Made by a program: the position numbers and the translations under genes. The notes below the pieces were generated by a model. It did no database searches and had not been told where the DNA came from. It saw nothing but the letters and a program-made list of their open reading frames with translations. A DNA stretch of 64,000 nt, taken from Natronolimnobius baerhuensis (GTDB lineage Archaea > Halobacteriota > Halobacteria > Halobacteriales > Natrialbaceae). Shown here piece after piece: positions 3,010 to 46,872 of the stretch. The stretch lies in NCBI RefSeq assembly GCF_002177135.1, contig NZ_MWPH01000002.1, forward strand, positions 620,001-684,000, in the 5' to 3' direction. Within the stretch, counting starts at the first letter, position 1. Each line of letters opens with the position of its first letter.

Positions 3010-3150
3010 CGCGCAGGCATTCGATTCGGGTTTCCATTGAGGAATGGCCCCAAGCATCGTGGGCGCGATGAACCAGTGTTCCTCCCACAGTGGCAACACG
3101 ACGGAAAACGCCATTGTCGACTGATTGGTACGCAAATCGCTCGAGGGGAC
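3010..3150 (-). pseudogene. decayed C-terminal fragment of an HtpX-like protease
   Basis: Read on the minus strand, this stretch gives RTNQSTMAFSVVLPLWEEHW and further matches. The intact HtpX-like protease 1 kb away (4128-5411) has RTNRSTAVFSIVPPPWEEHR near its C-terminus. Over 77 aligned bases (3071-3147 against 4234-4310) I count 64 identities, and all 13 differences are transitions. No N-terminal part, catalytic motif or start is present, so this is a relic of a partial duplication rather than a gene. It lies on the far side of the DUF4397 lipoprotein gene from its parent. Confidence 0.85.
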
Positions 3151-9842: not shown

Positions 9843-10253
9843 CTACTGCACCGGTCGGAACCCGACAATCCGTTTGCCGGACGTTTCGGACGTTGTCACG
9901 GCGATTTCGACAGCCAATCCGGGTTCGACCGTCTCCGGGTCGACCTCGACCACCTGGCCCGTCAGCCGAACCGGCCCGAAGTCCGCGATGGCGGTTGCAT
10001 ACGGCGCGTCGGCTTCGAACGACGGCGTCGCGACGTGTGTCACCGTCACGGTCTCGACCTCGCCCGTTTCGGGCAGCGGTTCCTCGGTGAGATCTGTCGA
10101 GCCACACTCGGGACAGACCCGCCGCGGGGGCAGCGAGTGGTGGCCCGCCTCGCAGACGAGAGAGTACGCTTCGTTTGCTCGTGCTGCATCGAGCCAGTCG
10201 TCGAAGCCGGCGTCTCGAGTGCGCTCGCCGTCGGATTCGGTGTTCTCGCTCAT
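9843..10253 (-). CDS. DUF35 OB-fold / zinc-ribbon acyl-CoA-associated protein
   Basis: This 136-residue partner protein of thiolases has an N-terminal rubredoxin-like zinc ribbon (Cys at about 34, then CPECGS) followed by an OB-fold (residues about 60-136; ETVTVTHVATPSF, then a strand ending IVGFRPVQ). In archaea DUF35 proteins form channelling complexes with thiolase-superfamily enzymes by binding the CoA moiety. The thiolase gene lies immediately upstream on the same strand. The two would overlap by ATGA if it were not for two extra copies of a 59-bp repeat between them. The start ATG 10253 has a perfect archaeal ribosome binding site, GGAGGTG, five bases upstream. Confidence 0.85.
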   Translation of the reverse strand: MSENTESDGERTRDAGFDDWLDAARANEAYSLVCEAGHHSLPPRRVCPECGSTDLTEEPLPETGEVETVTVTHVATPSFEADAPYATAIADFGPVRLTGQVVEVDPETVEPGLAVEIAVTTSETSGKRIVGFRPVQ

Positions 10254-10312
10254 GCAACCACCTCCAGAGCAAAGCGCTGGCGTCGTTGCACTCGCTCACA
10301 GTGTTCGCTCAT
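10250..10312 (-). CDS. mini-cistron, repeat copy 1 (20 residues)
   Basis: On the minus strand ATG 10312 reads MSEHCERVQRRQRFALEVVA and stops at TGA 10250-10252, overlapping the DUF35 start as ATGA. A ribosome binding site GGAGGTG precedes the start at the same five-base spacing as the DUF35 gene. It is an exact product of the 59-bp tandem duplication. Its last residues copy the thiolase C-terminus (LEVVA) and its first copy the DUF35 N-terminus (MSE). A peptide function is not implied; it may simply keep translation coupled across the inserted repeats. Confidence 0.5.
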   Translation of the reverse strand: MSEHCERVQRRQRFALEVVA

Positions 10313-10386
10313 GCAACCACCTCCAGAGCAAAGCGCTGGCGTCGTTGCACTCGCTCACAGTGTTCGCTCATGCAACCACCTCCAGA
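10251..10386. repeat. tandem 59-bp direct repeat (two full copies plus 18 bp)
   Basis: Copies start at 10251, 10310 and 10369, each with CATGCAACCACCTCCAGA. The first two full units are identical and the third is cut after 18 bases, where it becomes the thiolase 3' end. The period of 59 bp is not a multiple of three, yet it equals a 63-base cistron minus a 4-base ATGA overlap. Identity of the copies indicates recent duplication or active homogenisation. Confidence 0.95.
10309..10371 (-). CDS. mini-cistron, repeat copy 2 (20 residues)
   Basis: This is identical in sequence to the copy at 10250-10312. It starts at ATG 10371, which overlaps the thiolase stop (10368-10370) as ATGA, and ends overlapping the next copy's start. 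Thiolase, mini-cistron 2, mini-cistron 1 and DUF35 therefore form an unbroken chain of ATGA overlaps. Confidence 0.5.
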   Translation of the reverse strand: MSEHCERVQRRQRFALEVVA

Positions 10387-11534
10387 ACGTGGACCACTGC
10401 ACTCGCGACCGTCCCGCCCGCGTTGTGCGCGACGCCGGTCGTTGCTCCCTCGACGTACTCGCTGTTTGGATGGTCACCCGCGAGCAGCGTCGCCACCTCG
10501 GCGACCTGCGAAACACCAGTTGCGCCGACTGGGTGGCCCTTGGCTTTCAACCCGCCCGAGAGGTTGATCGGCGTATCGCCGTCGGGCGTCGTGCGTCCGT
10601 CTCGAGCAGCCGAAATGCCCTCGCCGACCTGCTCGAGGTCGAGCGCCTCGAGGGCGAGCACTTCGGCGATGGTGAAACAGTCGTGAACCTCCGCGAGGTC
10701 GACGTCCTCTGGGCCGATTTCGGCGTCGGCGTAGGCCTGTTCGCCCGCCTCGCGTGCGGCGGGCGAGCGCGCGAGGTACTCGCGGTCGTGGAGCGCCATC
10801 CGATCCCCGCCCTGACCGGTGCCGGTGATCGCCACGGGTGCATCGAGGTCGTGTTCGTCGGCATACGCCTCGCTCACGAGGACAACCGCGGCCGCGCCAT
10901 CGGAGAGCGGACAGGAGTCGTACAACCCGAGCGGACTCGAGACCGTGGGTGCCTCGAGCACGTCCTCGACGGAGAGGGCACGCTGGTACTGCGCTTTCTC
11001 GTTGGTGAGTGCGTTCTCGTGGTTCTTTGCGGCGATGTGTGCGAGGTCTTCGCGGTCGCCGCCGTAGGTCTCAAAGTAGGCGGTAGCCATCAGCGCGTAC
11101 GCACCGGGGAAGGTCATCCCGGCCCGCACTTCCCAGAGGTCGTCCGCCGCGATTGCGAGCGCCTCGGTCGCGCCCGCGGTGCCGAGGTTGGTCATCCGCT
11201 CTGCGCCGCCGACGAGCACCACGTCACACTCGCCGTTTCGCAGTCGGATCACGGCGTCGCGAAGCGCCATCCCGCTCGAGGCGCAGGCGGCCTCGTACCG
11301 AGTCGCGGGTGCGGTGACGCCGGCGGCTTCGGCCATCAACGGGCCTTGATGGCCCTGATGCTCGGACAGTTCGCCCATGAAGTTGCCGTAGAGGACGGCG
11401 TCAACATCGTCGCGAGGAACGTCGCTGTCTGCCAGCGCGGTGGCACTTGCCTCAGCAAACAGGTCCCGACTCGTCCGTTCGGGGTACTCGCCGAACGACG
11501 TGAGCCCGGTTCCGGCAACGCGTACGCTACTCAT
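10368..11534 (-). CDS. thiolase family protein (acetyl-CoA acetyltransferase type)
   Basis: This 388-residue thiolase-fold enzyme has the acylated cysteine in the motif EAACASSGMA, and active-site segments EVHDCFT and GHPVGATG near the C-terminus, so all key residues are present. It is of the SCP2-thiolase-like branch that in archaea works with a DUF35 protein. Possible roles are acetoacetyl-CoA formation for mevalonate or fatty-acyl and PHA metabolism. The start is taken at ATG 11534 (MSSVRVAGTGLTSFGEY) rather than two codons upstream. It is first in a two-gene unit with the DUF35 gene, with tiny repeated cistrons between them. Confidence 0.88.
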   Translation of the reverse strand: MSSVRVAGTGLTSFGEYPERTSRDLFAEASATALADSDVPRDDVDAVLYGNFMGELSEHQGHQGPLMAEAAGVTAPATRYEAACASSGMALRDAVIRLRNGECDVVLVGGAERMTNLGTAGATEALAIAADDLWEVRAGMTFPGAYALMATAYFETYGGDREDLAHIAAKNHENALTNEKAQYQRALSVEDVLEAPTVSSPLGLYDSCPLSDGAAAVVLVSEAYADEHDLDAPVAITGTGQGGDRMALHDREYLARSPAAREAGEQAYADAEIGPEDVDLAEVHDCFTIAEVLALEALDLEQVGEGISAARDGRTTPDGDTPINLSGGLKAKGHPVGATGVSQVAEVATLLAGDHPNSEYVEGATTGVAHNAGGTVASAVVHVLEVVA

Positions 11535-11704
11535 ACACACACCTAGCTCGTCGACAGGCTAAAGTTCGGTGGTTGGTATCACGGGACGATCCTGACGTCA
11601 CCCCACACATCTGGACAGCACAATACCCGTTTTACAAACATAATTGGGACAGCACTGGCTTCCTGTTCCCGGCCATTTATACGTCCGCTTTCGAACATTT
11701 GCTT

Positions 11705-31316: not shown

Positions 31317-32261
31317 ATGGACGAACTCGAGATCGAGGCGGTCGCCGAGGTTGAACTGGACGACCCCGTTCTCGTCGAGGGGTTGCCGGGTGTTGGCCAC
31401 GTTGGCAAACTCGCCGTTGATCACCTACTCGAGGAACTGAACGCTGACGATGAGGCAGACGCTGAGGCTGCGGAGACGTCGGACGCCGACTCCGAGGCTG
31501 CGGATGACGGTGAAACCGACGCCGACACCGAGAGTGAGTCGGACGACACTACTGACACAGACACCGACAGTGAGTCCGACAGCGACGAGACAATCACGAG
31601 CAGCCTCGAGGGCGAGGCCACGCTCGTTCGTCGAGTCTACTCACAGGAGTTCCCGCCGCAAGTCAGCGTCGAGGGTGGCGTCGCGGACCTGACCTGCACC
31701 GAAATCTATGCCGTTTCGATCCCCGAGGGTCGGGACCTGCTCTTGTTGACTGGCGATCATCAGGCCCAGACGAACGAGGGCCATTACCTCTTGACCGATG
31801 CCTTCCTCGACATCGCCGAGGAGTTCGGCGCATCGGAGCTGTACGCCCTTGGTGGCGTTCCGACCGGGGAACTCATCGACGAGTACGCCGTTATCGGCGC
31901 GGCCACCCACGAGTCGATGCTCGAGCCACTCGAGGCCGCGGGCGTCGAGTTCCGCGAGGACGAACCGGCCGGCGGCATTGTCGGCGTCTCCGGACTCCTC
32001 CTTGGCCTCGGCAAACGTCGTGGCTTCGAGGCAGCCTGCCTGATGGGCGAGACCAGCGGCTATCTCGTCGATCCAAAAAGTGCTCGCGCGGTGCTCGAGG
32101 TACTCGAGACGGTCCTCGAGATCGAACTGGGTTATGAGCGACTGGACGACCGTGCCGACGAGATGGAAGACGTCATCGGCAAGATCCAGGAGATGGAACA
32201 GCAACAACAGCAACAGCAGATGGACGTGCCGACGGACGACGATCTGCGCTATATCGGCTAA
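31317..32261 (+). CDS. PAC2 family protein (proteasome assembly chaperone-like)
   Basis: This 314-residue protein of the PAC2 (COG2047) family, related to archaeal proteasome assembly chaperones, has core motifs PVLVEGLPGVGHVGKLAVDHL near the start, FPPQVSVEGGVADL, LLLLTGDHQAQTNEGHY, LYALGGVPTGE and CLMGETSGYLVDPKSA. A haloarchaeal insertion of about 55 almost purely Asp/Glu/Ser/Thr residues (about 43-98) interrupts the first beta-alpha unit, and the C-terminus has a run of seven glutamines after MEQ. It is seven bases after nop10, so co-transcription is likely. Confidence 0.88.
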   Translation: MDELEIEAVAEVELDDPVLVEGLPGVGHVGKLAVDHLLEELNADDEADAEAAETSDADSEAADDGETDADTESESDDTTDTDTDSESDSDETITSSLEGEATLVRRVYSQEFPPQVSVEGGVADLTCTEIYAVSIPEGRDLLLLTGDHQAQTNEGHYLLTDAFLDIAEEFGASELYALGGVPTGELIDEYAVIGAATHESMLEPLEAAGVEFREDEPAGGIVGVSGLLLGLGKRRGFEAACLMGETSGYLVDPKSARAVLEVLETVLEIELGYERLDDRADEMEDVIGKIQEMEQQQQQQQMDVPTDDDLRYIG

Positions 32262-40564: not shown

Positions 40565-41605
40565 ATGCCGACAGACGGTTCCCCACACCCGACCGACAGC
40601 GACCGGCCCTCTTTTCACCGACGGCGATTCGTCCACGCTGGCGTCGCGACTGCACTCGTTGGAGTCGCCGGTTGTCTTTCCGACGACAACACCGGCGCCG
40701 ACGACTCGAGCGATGACGGCGATGCTACCGAGAGCGACACCGACCCAGCCGATTCGGCCGACGATACCGACGAGTCGACAGCCGACTCGGCCGACAACGG
40801 TGACGACGAATCCACCGACGACGCGGCCGACGAGCGCGAGGACGAACTCATCGCCGTCATCAACACCTTTCTCGAGGCCGCAGCCGAGGGCGACATGGAC
40901 ACGCTCGACGAAATCAGCCACAGCCTGAACCCGTTCAACCCAGCCGTATGGGTCGAAGCAGGCTGGGAGTTCCAGGGCGGCGACGGCGAGGAGTTCGACG
41001 ACGAACTGTTCGATACGGAGGTCGTCACTGACGACGGCACAATCGAGGACATCCTCGAACTCGAGGGTGCAGAGCTCTGGTTCGCCGAGGTCGATCTCGA
41101 GGACGAAATCGGCGACGAAGAGATCGCATTGGTCCAACTGTCCGTCGACGATCCGACCGAAAACGACTCGATCTGGGCACTCGTCACTGAAGACGACGAG
41201 TGGCGACTCTTCTTCCAGGCCGAAGTCGACGACCCACCCGAAAATCTCGAGGAGGTGTTCGAAGATGAGGTCATCGACGAGGACAACGATGTCGTCGAAA
41301 CAATCGACTGGGACTACGATCAAGACCAGAACGACGACAACGACTTCTTCGACGATGTCGAGTGGGTGCAAGTCGAGTTCACCGACGACCCCGGTATCGA
41401 GGCCGACCGCGTTCGAGTCGAGGCGACGATAGGCGATGGCGAATCAGAAGTGTACGGCGACGACCCCGGCGCATGGTCGAACTCTTGGGTAAACATCTCG
41501 CACCACCCCGAGGGCGATCAGATCGAGGTGTTTGCCATCACCGACGGCGAGGAAACGCTCGTCCATCGAGAACACTATCTTCCGGACGACGACACCGACG
41601 CGTAA
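40565..41605 (+). CDS. Tat-exported lipoprotein of unknown function
   Basis: This 346-residue protein has a leader with Arg19-Arg20-Arg21 and the lipobox VAGC (Cys37), a long Asp/Ser/Thr-rich linker (about 40-90), then an acidic globular part. A region at about 93-200 (AVINTFLEAAAEGDMDTLDE, then ISHSLNPFNP) resembles NTF2/SnoaL-like folds, and a C-terminal beta-rich domain (about 260-346) contains SWVNISHHPEGDQIEVFAIT. No enzyme motif is seen. It is a surface protein typical of haloarchaea. ATG 40565 puts the Tat motif at the correct distance. Confidence 0.78.
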   Translation: MPTDGSPHPTDSDRPSFHRRRFVHAGVATALVGVAGCLSDDNTGADDSSDDGDATESDTDPADSADDTDESTADSADNGDDESTDDAADEREDELIAVINTFLEAAAEGDMDTLDEISHSLNPFNPAVWVEAGWEFQGGDGEEFDDELFDTEVVTDDGTIEDILELEGAELWFAEVDLEDEIGDEEIALVQLSVDDPTENDSIWALVTEDDEWRLFFQAEVDDPPENLEEVFEDEVIDEDNDVVETIDWDYDQDQNDDNDFFDDVEWVQVEFTDDPGIEADRVRVEATIGDGESEVYGDDPGAWSNSWVNISHHPEGDQIEVFAITDGEETLVHREHYLPDDDTDA

Positions 41606-42904: not shown

Positions 42905-45900
42905 CAGCAGGCACCTCTTCACTACTCAAATCGATCCCGGTGACCGCGCTCACGTTGTCCTGTTGCATCGTGACACCGATAGCGCGCTGGGAGCGATCAA
43001 GCATCGCTGAACGGTGTGACACCACGACGAACTGGGCCTGCCCTGCGAGTTCTTCGACCATCTCACCGATTCGCTCGGCGTTGACCGCATCGAGGAACGC
43101 ATCGACCTCATCCAGTGCGTAAAACGGCGCTGGGTTGTGGCGCTGAATCCCGAAAATGAACGCCAGCGCGGTCAGTGACTTCTCCCCGCCGGACATCGCA
43201 TCGAGGCGCTGAATCGGCTTATCGCCTGGTTGGGCCTTCATCGTCAGCCCGCCGTCAAATGGATCGTCCTCGTTTTCCAAGTGCAACGTCCCGGTCCCCT
43301 CCGACAGCTTCTCGAAGATCTCGGTGAAGTGCGACGAAATCTCCTCGTAGGCGTCCATAAACGTCTGTTTCTTCTGGGTTTCGTACTGTTCGATCCGGTC
43401 GCGGATCCCCTCGGCTTCCTCGACGAGTGTCGCCTTGCCCTCCTCTAACTCCTCGAGATCCTCGCGAACCTCGTCGTACTCATCGATTGCGAGCATGTTG
43501 ACCGGCTCCATCGCCTCCATATCCGCAGTGAGCAGGTCGATCATCTCGAGGACGGTCTCGTGATCCGGGACGTCTTCGGGGTCGTAGTCGCCGACTTCAG
43601 ATTCGAGACCCTCGATCTCCCACTCTAAGTCCTGCGCTCGCTCGCGTTTGGTCTCGAGTTTACTCTCGACGGCGTTGACCCGTTCCTGTTGCTGGTCGCG
43701 TTTCGTCCGTGCGTCCTCGAGTTCCTCACGAAGCTCACTCCGGTCCGCTTTGAGTTCGGTGAGTTCGTCCTCGAGTTCTGCGACGGCTTCGCGTTTGTCC
43801 TCAAGATCGGCTTCTTTGTCCTCGATAGCCGCCTCACATTCCTCGATGCGGTCTTCATGTTCGGCCGTCTTGTTCTGGGCGTCCTCGATATCGTCGTGGA
43901 GGCTGTCGACCGCGTCCTCGGCGTACTCCTTCTCGAGTTCGAGTTCGTTGAGTGTGCCGTCGAGGTCATCGATTTTGTTGTCGCGCTCGTCAATCTCGTG
44001 CTGAAGGTCCTCGATCTGTGCCGTCAATTCCGGAATCTTCGAATCCGCGAGTTCGGACTCAAGGTCGTCGATATCGGCTTCGATCTCCTCGATGACGGCG
44101 GTTTTCTCGTTGATCTCGCTCGAAATCGTGTTCATCCGGTCGTCGACGGATTCGCGGTCGTCCTCTAACTCCTCGAGTTCGTCCTCGAGTGTCTCGATTT
44201 CGTCCTCGATGGAGTCGCGCTTGGTCTCGAGGCTCTCGATCTCGCTTTCGATGGAGCGCACCTCGTCGGCGGCGTCCGTTTTGCGGTCTCGAGCGTCGTC
44301 GAGTCGGCCCTCGACATCGCGCAGGTCATCGCGCAGCGACGCGCGTTCGTCCTGTAACTCGGTGATCTGTTTCGCGACGCGCTCGAGTTGGCCCTCGCCG
44401 CCGCCGGTAAAGGAATAACGCGAGCCGCCACCGGAGCCGCCGGTCATCGCCCCGCTCTTTTCGACGAGGTCGCCATCGAGGGTGACCATCCGGTAGTCGC
44501 CCATGTACGAGCGGGCGGTCTCGATGTCTTCGACGACGAGCGTGTCGCCGAGCACGTACGAGAAGACCTCGTCGTACTGGCTGTCAAAATCGACCAGATT
44601 GTACGCGAAGTCGACGACGCCCGGATCGGTCGGCGCATTCGGGAGCCGACGCTTGTGCATGTCCGTCATCGGCAGGAACGTCGCCCGGCCCGCGTTGCGC
44701 GATTTAAGGTGGTCGATACACTGTTGTCCGATCACGTCGTCGGAGACGACCACGTTCGCGAGCCGGCCACCCGCTGCCGTCTCACAGGCAACGGCGTACT
44801 CGCCCGGAACCGTCCCGAGTTGGGCGACTGCGCCGTGAACGCCGTCGATTCCTGAATTGAGAATCGTCGTCACCGCCCGGCCAAAGGAGGAATCGCCGCT
44901 CTCGCCTGCGTTCGCCTCGAGTTCGGCGTACTCCTGTTGTTTTGCCTGAATTTCGTCATCTAACTCGTCGACATCCGACTGGAGCCGGCGCTTCTCGCTT
45001 TTGAGGTCGTCGACGACATCCGCGATGCTCGCTTGGTTCTTTTGAGCCTTCTCGAGTTCGCGCTCGAGGTCGCTCTTGTGGTTCTCGAGGTCGGGAATCT
45101 CCTCGCGGCGCTGTTCGATGGTCGACTCTTTCTCGCTGATCTCATTTGAACGCCGCCGAGCCTCATCGAGTAGTCGATCCTGCTCGCGCTGGAGGTCGTT
45201 CTTTGCTGTTTTGGCCTCCTCTAAGTCGTCTTTCCGATCCGAAAGGTCCGCTTTGAGTTCATCGAACTCAGTGTCGACGGCGTCGATTTCGGCCTCGAGA
45301 TCCGCTTTTTCGGCCTCGCGTTCTTGAATCTCAGATTTGATTGAGGCCTTCTCGAGTTTGTGCTCGCGCATCTCGTCTGCGAGCTCGTCAATCGTCTCCT
45401 GTTTGCGGTCGATCTGGACGAACGCCTCGCGGCGCTTGGATTCGGCCTCGTCGATTGCGTCCTCGCTGGCTTCGATTTTGTCCTCGAGACGGGAGATATC
45501 GCCTTTGATCTCCTCAATTTCGCTTTTGATGCGTAGCTGTTCGTCCTCGCCTTTGCGCTCGATTTCGGCGTTTAGGTCCTCGAGGTCCTCCTGTAACCGC
45601 ACGAGTGTTCCCTGGCGTTCGTCGAGTTCGCGCTGGAGGTCCTCGAGGTCGGTCTCGAGGTCGGAAACGGCGTCTTCGGCCGCAGCGAGTTCCTCGCGTT
45701 TTTCCTCGAGTTCGCTGGCTTTCTTGTAGCCCTCGTATTCCTCTTTTTCGTCGCGCAGACGGCGATAGCGCAGTGCAGTTTGGCGCTCGTCCTCGAGTTG
45801 ACCGAGTCGGTCGCGTTTCTCCTCAATGCGGAGTGTGGCCTCGTCGATCCGTTCTTCGACGATCTCGAGTTCGCCGAATGCGTCTTCTTTTTTCGCATCG

Positions 45901-46545: not shown

Positions 46546-46872
46546 TTATGCGACAATGATGTCGTCGCTACCTGAGTCTTCCGCTTCGTCACCAGTTGCG
46601 TCCTCCTCAGCGTCGGCGGCTGCTTTGGCTACGTCGTCGGGCGCGGCTTCCGGCGTCTCCGCAGTGGCCTCTTCGTCTGCCTGCTCACCAGCGTCGACCG
46701 TCTCCTCTTGGCGACGGCGCTCGGGCACTCGAGTAGGCGTCTCGGCATCCAGTTCTGCCTCGAGAACGCGGATGCGCTCTTTTGCCTCGATAAGCTCGTC
46801 AGTGAGACCCTCTACCGTCGACTCGAGTTCCGCGACCGTCGATTCGAGCTGCTCGACGCGATTGTTCGACAT
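46546..46872 (-). CDS. small acidic coiled-coil protein
   Basis: This 108-residue protein starts with two heptad runs (MSNNRVEQLESTVAELESTV, then EGLTDELIEAKERIRVLEAE) predicted to form a parallel coiled coil, followed by an acidic disordered tail ending DDIIVA. It lies 76 bases upstream of smc on the same strand, and the same arrangement is found in haloarchaea generally, so it may be an SMC-linked accessory (inference). ATG 46872 is preferred over one nine codons upstream. Confidence 0.72.
   Translation of the reverse strand: MSNNRVEQLESTVAELESTVEGLTDELIEAKERIRVLEAELDAETPTRVPERRRQEETVDAGEQADEEATAETPEAAPDDVAKAAADAEEDATGDEAEDSGSDDIIVA

Follow-up and report, generated by a model that had tools for sequence, protein, structure and literature searches.

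How can two adjacent genes be pushed apart by a tandem repeat and still stay joined, stop to start, along their whole length? The question is raised by a thiolase/DUF35 gene pair on the minus strand of a 64-kb stretch of the Natronolimnobius baerhuensis genome (64,000 nucleotides of contig NZ_MWPH01000002.1, positions 620,001 to 684,000; hereafter the window). At the junction of the two genes lies a perfect 59-bp tandem repeat at 10246-10386 (2.4 copies, 100% match, score 282 in TRF), which is by far the strongest tandem repeat in the window. This agrees with a first-pass annotation, made by a model from the sequence, which had reported a tandem 59-bp duplication at this place. In the order of translation, the features of the chain are:

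10368..11540, minus strand: thiolase-domain protein, 390 aa, first gene of the chain (ORF list, Pfam/NCBIfam)
10377..10383, minus strand: GGAGGTG Shine-Dalgarno (SD) for mini-cistron 1, within the thiolase end (sequence)
10309..10371, minus strand: mini-cistron 1, ATG...TGA, 20 codons, MSEHCERVQRRQRFALEVVA; its start and the thiolase stop share ATGA (ORF reading, covariance model hit)
10311..10350, minus strand: hairpin in mini-cistron 1, with the SD and start codon of mini-cistron 2 in its 3' arm (fold, family covariation)
10318..10324, minus strand: GGAGGTG SD for mini-cistron 2 (sequence)
10250..10312, minus strand: mini-cistron 2, MSEHCERVQRRQRFALEVVA, the same as mini-cistron 1; overlaps the stop of mini-cistron 1 and the start of DUF35 (ORF reading, covariance model hit)
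10252..10291, minus strand: hairpin in mini-cistron 2, masking the SD and start codon of DUF35 (fold, family covariation)
10259..10265, minus strand: GGAGGTG SD for the DUF35 gene (sequence)
9843..10253, minus strand: DUF35 / ChsH2-type zinc-ribbon OB-fold protein, 136 aa, final gene of the chain (ORF list, Pfam)

The thiolase frame ends in ...CTGGAGGTGGTTGCATGA, and Pfam assigns the flanking proteins to Thiolase_N plus Thiolase_C_1 and to the ChsH2-type zinc ribbon plus OB-fold (DUF35). All three steps of the chain are 4-nt ATGA stop/start overlaps, and GGAGGTG precedes each of the three overlapped starts, which is the nearby SD that termination-reinitiation (TeRe) calls for. Our minus-strand reading is thus the one first proposed, namely a thiolase, two identical 20-codon frames and DUF35, chained by ATGA and each with its own GGAGGTG. 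The first-pass annotation had also pointed out that a 59-bp period is exactly what keeps the coupling, being 63 minus 4. The arithmetic is correct, but its evidential weight is slight, since a third of all lengths would do, and the interior, when shuffled at a fitting length, stays open with a mean probability of 0.63. The window alone therefore proves little, and whether the array is more than chance has to be judged by comparison with other genomes. Within the host genome, a genome-wide search gave no second locus for the 59-bp unit, and a search for the pattern GGAGGTG-ATGA-GGAGGTG gave no occurrence besides the array. The window also holds further short, imperfect tandem repeats with periods of 12-36 (31458-31525, 40768-40846, 44158-44209 and 46809-46857), all probably within coding sequence.

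Thiolase/DUF35 junctions were gathered from named genomes and from 125 genomes of the same family, and removal of identical junctions left 153 distinct ones. The two genes are in direct contact in 118 of these haloarchaeal junctions, nearly always through ATGA or TAATG, while 35 carry mini-cistron inserts, as one unit (29 junctions), two (5) or five (1). The full chain of stop/start overlaps is present in 35/35 insert-bearing junctions (ATGA or GTGA, with TGATG once, at the final overlap), a count that does not equal 35 independent trials, as the genomes are related. The mini-ORFs at these junctions are 17, 18, 20, 21, 22, 37, 40 or 51 codons long, and in four cases adjacent units have merged into a single frame of 37-51 codons with the overlap at the end retained. 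The comparison of copy number among relatives, which had been suggested as a check, showed that it differs, with 0, 1, 2, 3 or 5 units. At this junction the sister species in the genus of N. baerhuensis (G001) lacks an insert, and 22 switches between presence and absence are needed on the thiolase tree, 17 or more of them forced by supported branches, which points to frequent gain and loss. At another thiolase/DUF35 junction (L177, in G009) the DUF35 N-terminus reads MSERSNGNGNGNESEN..., which resembles the element's left end joined in frame to the gene, the hairpin having been lost.

The two-unit copy number in the N. baerhuensis genome rests on one assembly, and its units are 100% identical, as would be expected if the array were a local tandem-duplication accident or an assembly artefact of one genome. 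We find this explanation scarcely credible, because homologous units and arrays recur across many assemblies, complete and RefSeq finished records among them. At the orthologous junction (L015), the complete chromosome of Natribaculum breve carries an array of 2 x 59 bp, and one unit is found both on pHTUR01 of Haloterrigena turkmenica DSM 5511, at HTUR_RS18645/HTUR_RS18640, and in N. luteum. An artefact, which the first-pass annotation had named as the outcome that might overturn its reading, fails as a general explanation in the face of the N. breve array and the H. turkmenica unit. N. breve and N. longum are equal at 3128/3149 positions, and the same substitution is present in both array units, a concerted change suggestive of gene conversion.

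An alignment of 38 units gave the consensus ATGAGCGAnCnnAGnGAGCGAATGCGAnTACGCCAGAGCnnnGCTCTGGAGGTGGTCGCATGA. The SD is nearly invariant across the family, and insert lengths are mostly 50, 53 or 59 bp. One core DNA is read in two ways, as ...RMRVRQS..ALEVVA in some units and as ...ANAMTPA..ALEVVA in others. Modulo three, the distances that separate the core from the start and from the stop take just two pairs of values, (2,1) for 17 units and (0,0) for 16, each pair summing to zero; a left-hand shift by one base is therefore offset in every case within the hairpin loop or stem, and the core-to-stop distance compensates in 33/33 units counted. Such a pattern would be expected from selection on an unbroken frame, and it suggests that the frame is kept rather than the peptide. 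The two frame classes could also be two founder lineages, in which case the compensating indels might be few events. The frame is always open and relatives have homologous peptides (MSDHWKRTRVHRSAALGVVA, MSERSERMRVRQSFALEVTER), both in keeping with mini-cistrons that encode a functional micropeptide, but the two-frame reading of one DNA yields unrelated peptides, and the common LEVVA/PEVVA end is dictated by the SD. A conserved microprotein gene was rejected on the ground that one DNA consensus is read in two frames, and we regard a micropeptide function as very improbable.

A feature that the first-pass annotation missed is a conserved hairpin that covers the SD and the next start codon. In the family, ATGCGANTAC-G-CCAGAGC pairs with GCTCTGG-AG-GTGGTCGCAT, and the 3' arm takes in the SD and start codon of the following cistron. 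The hairpin of mini-cistron 1 reads GTGCAAC.GA.CCAG.GC-TTT-GC.CTGG..GT.GTTGCAT, and the window copies are imperfect, with one C-T mismatch in the inner stem. The fold of the two-unit stretch of the window has z = -3.45, and for a single window unit the gain over shuffles is modest (z -1.09). In the family alignment the pairing holds in 86.1% of cells, with both-side changes at 9 pairs. Double-change cells number 40, compared with 12.0 +/- 2.6 in shuffles (0/500 as high), and covariation is 0.228 as against 0.109 in shuffles (0/500), while a control with the partner slid by 1-3 columns gave at most 9 double-change cells. Versions of the inner stem include CCAGAGC/GCTCTGG, CCGGACC/GGTCCGG, CCGGAAC/GTTCCGG, CCCGAAC/GTTCGGG and CCAGCGC/GCGCTGG. 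The ratio of G-U to A-C is 9:2 in the inner stem, an asymmetry suggestive of pairing at the RNA rather than the DNA level, and 18:17 overall, where G-U is not clearly above A-C, so that RNA rather than DNA pairing is likely, though not proven. Rfam 15 holds no family matching the element at E<=1.

A covariance model built solely from thiolase/DUF35 units (R1) has matches in 48/125 family genomes at E<=0.01, a few of them unrelated palindromes, and in 94/392 Halobacteriales genomes, about a quarter, at E<=1e-4. The top covariance model match of the host genome is mini-cistron 2 (E 5e-15). Trained only on thiolase junctions, R1 places the element at about 17 other gene pairs. By Pfam, these junctions include leuC/leuD, etfB/etfA, ribosomal L18e/L13 and V-type ATPase C/F; an ABC ATPase with an ABC-2 permease, CbiQ with an ABC ATPase, and PTS EIIA/HPr; the glycine cleavage P-protein with a class-V aminotransferase-like partner, a Gfo/Idh pair and a TrkA_C pair; HAD hydrolase/class II aldolase, hexapeptide transferase/DegT aminotransferase and CofD/CitG; and junctions of DUF58 with a downstream membrane protein, of a MacB-like permease and of a COX1 protein. 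Two further pairs are read, by their sequence only, as PhnL/PhnM-like and RPA-like. Many of the pairs encode subunits of one complex, and this is equally so for overlapping pairs in general. Where checked, the element ORFs are missing from RefSeq-derived annotation. Inspection of 78 R1 hits showed a complete overlap chain in 67 (counting L235 and L301 by inspection, where a length limit or contig end had clipped the downstream gene, and L324 via TGATG) and an in-frame fusion to the downstream gene in 2 (L291, L296), the remainder being low-scoring or without a clear reading. Nearly all inserts seen are relay-competent, and the legible exceptions are in-frame fusions. Since the interior is common to elements at unrelated genes, a local tandem duplication of the thiolase end was rejected. 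The initial picture of the unit as a local duplication thus gives way to a unit belonging to a Halobacteriales-wide family at many gene pairs.

Start and stop codons would otherwise be built into the search, so a second model (R2) was limited to the 34-nt core, without either. In Natrialbaceae, 64/64 of its hits at E<=1e-4 lie at overlap junctions on the sense strand, and the core is therefore not strewn through intergenic DNA like an ordinary repeat; two marginal hits (E about 2.5e-4) fall within long genes. A generic dispersed repeat was rejected, the unit being single-locus in the host genome and the core copies junction-locked. Also set aside were weaker, multi-copy hits in G003, G004 and G005, three genomes of a single genus, which belong to another palindrome. 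This different dispersed palindrome, GTGAGCGAGCCTGCGAGCGAACGGGGGCTCGTCGGAGCTTGCTCCGACGGTGGGACTGAAAG, is represented by L262-L265 (G003, G005) and by further hits in G004, with up to about 8 hits per genome, and none of the four copies read is at a stop/start overlap of the junction-insert kind.

Empty and filled sites can be compared within one genus: G031 has the insert at both leuC/leuD and etfB/etfA, G030 at neither, G034 at leuC/leuD only and G033 at etfB/etfA only. From G033 (empty) to G031 (filled), the leuCD site changes from CTTCCGGAGGTG|ACGGTATGA to CTTCCGGAGGTG|GTCGCATGAACG...GCTCTGGAGGTG|ACGGTATGA, with GGAGGTG as the SD to the left of the insert. The insert sits between the native SD and the native start, carries its own ATGA and SD, and swaps the final codons of the upstream gene for Val-Ala-stop. 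Insertion at etfB/A is likewise between native SD and start, and the filled site has a GGGGGTG SD at its left and GGAGGTG at its right, a difference indicating that the second SD belongs to the insert. The insertion point shows GGTG homology, and as the SD copies need not match the target there is no true target duplication. In a further genome (L334, G032), etfB/etfA holds an unrelated-looking 21-codon mini-ORF, MTTVAHSVRDDVTVLTGGESR, also with ATGA overlaps, which is perhaps a decayed or independent relay cistron.

We consider it likely that the array in the window consists of two units of a haloarchaeal junction-insert family that act as relay cistrons for termination-reinitiation. Each unit would supply the stop of the upstream gene together with an overlapping start (ATGA or GTGA), then a short open frame that crosses the hairpin, and finally an SD for the following start codon, with which the unit's own stop overlaps. 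In the hairpin, the interior of the mini-cistron would be paired with the following cistron's SD and start. A ribosome ending the thiolase would re-initiate on mini-cistron 1, melt the hairpin, terminate, and pass by way of mini-cistron 2 to DUF35. Units would enter junctions via recombination at the SD/start sequence and, after entry, multiply or shrink through tandem duplication and gene conversion. We infer the translation of the mini-cistrons, the hopping of the ribosome between them and the route of spread from sequence comparison.

Such a relay is in line with work on Haloferax volcanii (Huber et al. 2019, PMC6728339; 2023, PMC10666635): expression of the downstream gene of an overlapping pair depends strictly on translation of the upstream one, SD motifs fail to draw in ribosomes de novo, and re-initiation is lost once stop and start are 22 nt apart. 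With coupling already lost at that distance, a DUF35 gene displaced by 59-118 bp should fall silent if the inserted DNA is not a coupled cistron in its own right. In haloarchaea, where a gap of some 20 nt is enough to stop re-initiation and SD motifs offer no de novo recruitment, only self-coupling inserts would survive. In E. coli, the final 15 nt of the upstream gene are enough for re-initiation, and a cistron of 17-20 codons is thus long enough in principle. The idea put forward in the first-pass annotation, that the insertion was tolerated because re-initiation is preserved, fits all observations as well as the Haloferax work (PMC6728339, PMC10666635). A point against the relay reading is the masking hairpin, for which there is no obvious need if haloarchaea lack de novo initiation.

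It is quite possible, if short of probable, that the units are neutral passengers, namely short mobile or recombining palindromic DNA that is tolerated at SD/start overlaps via the coupled frame it recreates, brings the host no benefit, and has a hairpin that would reflect its mode of movement. Their patchy presence with 22 changes on the tree, the recent empty/filled pairs and the drift in copy number all speak for this, and the pairing would serve as DNA too, given that G-U is not clearly above A-C. A mobile palindrome would, however, be expected also in ordinary intergenic DNA and in both orientations, whereas the core hits are at sense-strand overlap junctions in 64/64 cases, and many of the pairs hit encode one complex (leuCD, etfBA, V-ATPase, ribosomal proteins), as do overlapping pairs generally; complex subunits account for 45.2% of overlapping and 5.6% of spaced pairs in Haloferax (PMC10666635). 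More tentatively, the units may form an adaptive tuner or switch, in which unit number and hairpin strength set the ratio of downstream to upstream protein output, with salt, temperature or ribosome supply as possible cues. Copy numbers from 0 to 5, maintenance by covariation of a hairpin that masks SD and start, and recurrence at complexes where the ratio matters would all suit a tuner, but most orthologues are without an insert and do well. That self-contained coupling cassettes of 50-60 bp have spread into SD/start overlaps, with tandem, hairpin-gated starts resetting the stoichiometry of neighbouring subunits, seems to us rather unlikely, and we are similarly doubtful that such cassettes would make up a previously undescribed class of natural, copy-number-variable translational couplers.

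Returning to the proposed relay cistrons, the finding is real and broader than originally described, the array being one case of a recurrent haloarchaeal junction element that would extend known translational coupling and not be a new principle. REP/REPIN and MITE/PATE sequences are likewise short, palindromic, dispersed, number-variable and unannotated. They are mainly intergenic and lie in either orientation, unlike the junction element, which is in sense orientation at start/stop overlaps. The Haloferax volcanii TeRe system has the same 4-nt overlaps, intragenic SD, clade and complex-subunit bias, but the available portions of those studies cover direct gene-gene overlaps and describe no inserted relay cistrons, arrays or hairpin family (PMC6728339, PMC10666635). 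Bicistronic-design leaders also consist of a short cistron containing the SD of the next gene, and the ribosome melts the structure over that SD, as it would the covarying masking hairpin of the junction inserts, but they are engineered and stand at the transcript 5' end, whereas the junction inserts are natural, intra-operon, repeated and number-variable (PMC10367133, PMC6302717). The axe-txe minigene is similarly a tiny ORF that alters expression of the next gene; such minigene and leader-ORF cases are single-locus, in contrast to a dispersed family locked to overlaps (PMC8708949). We found no earlier description of the junction inserts in the open-licence literature searched, a scope that leaves out most subscription journals.

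A four-base-overlap operon could, on the relay reading, accept foreign DNA provided that the insert is itself a relay cistron. The inserts would then be evolutionary, reporter-independent evidence that haloarchaeal termination-reinitiation reaches downstream genes and that loss of the chain is costly. With 0-5 units and pairs of the same gene with and without them, they offer a natural experiment for the tuning of subunit ratios, and archaeal engineering may find in them a ready set of couplers. A variant whose arms end in TTCGA/TCGAA recurs in several genomes at one other gene pair (L302, L318, L320, L324, L377, L379 and L380), in which the upstream ORF ends in ...YRLEVFD, the downstream ORF reads ...ARPANEIPV, and the overlaps are ATGA, TGATG or 8-nt.
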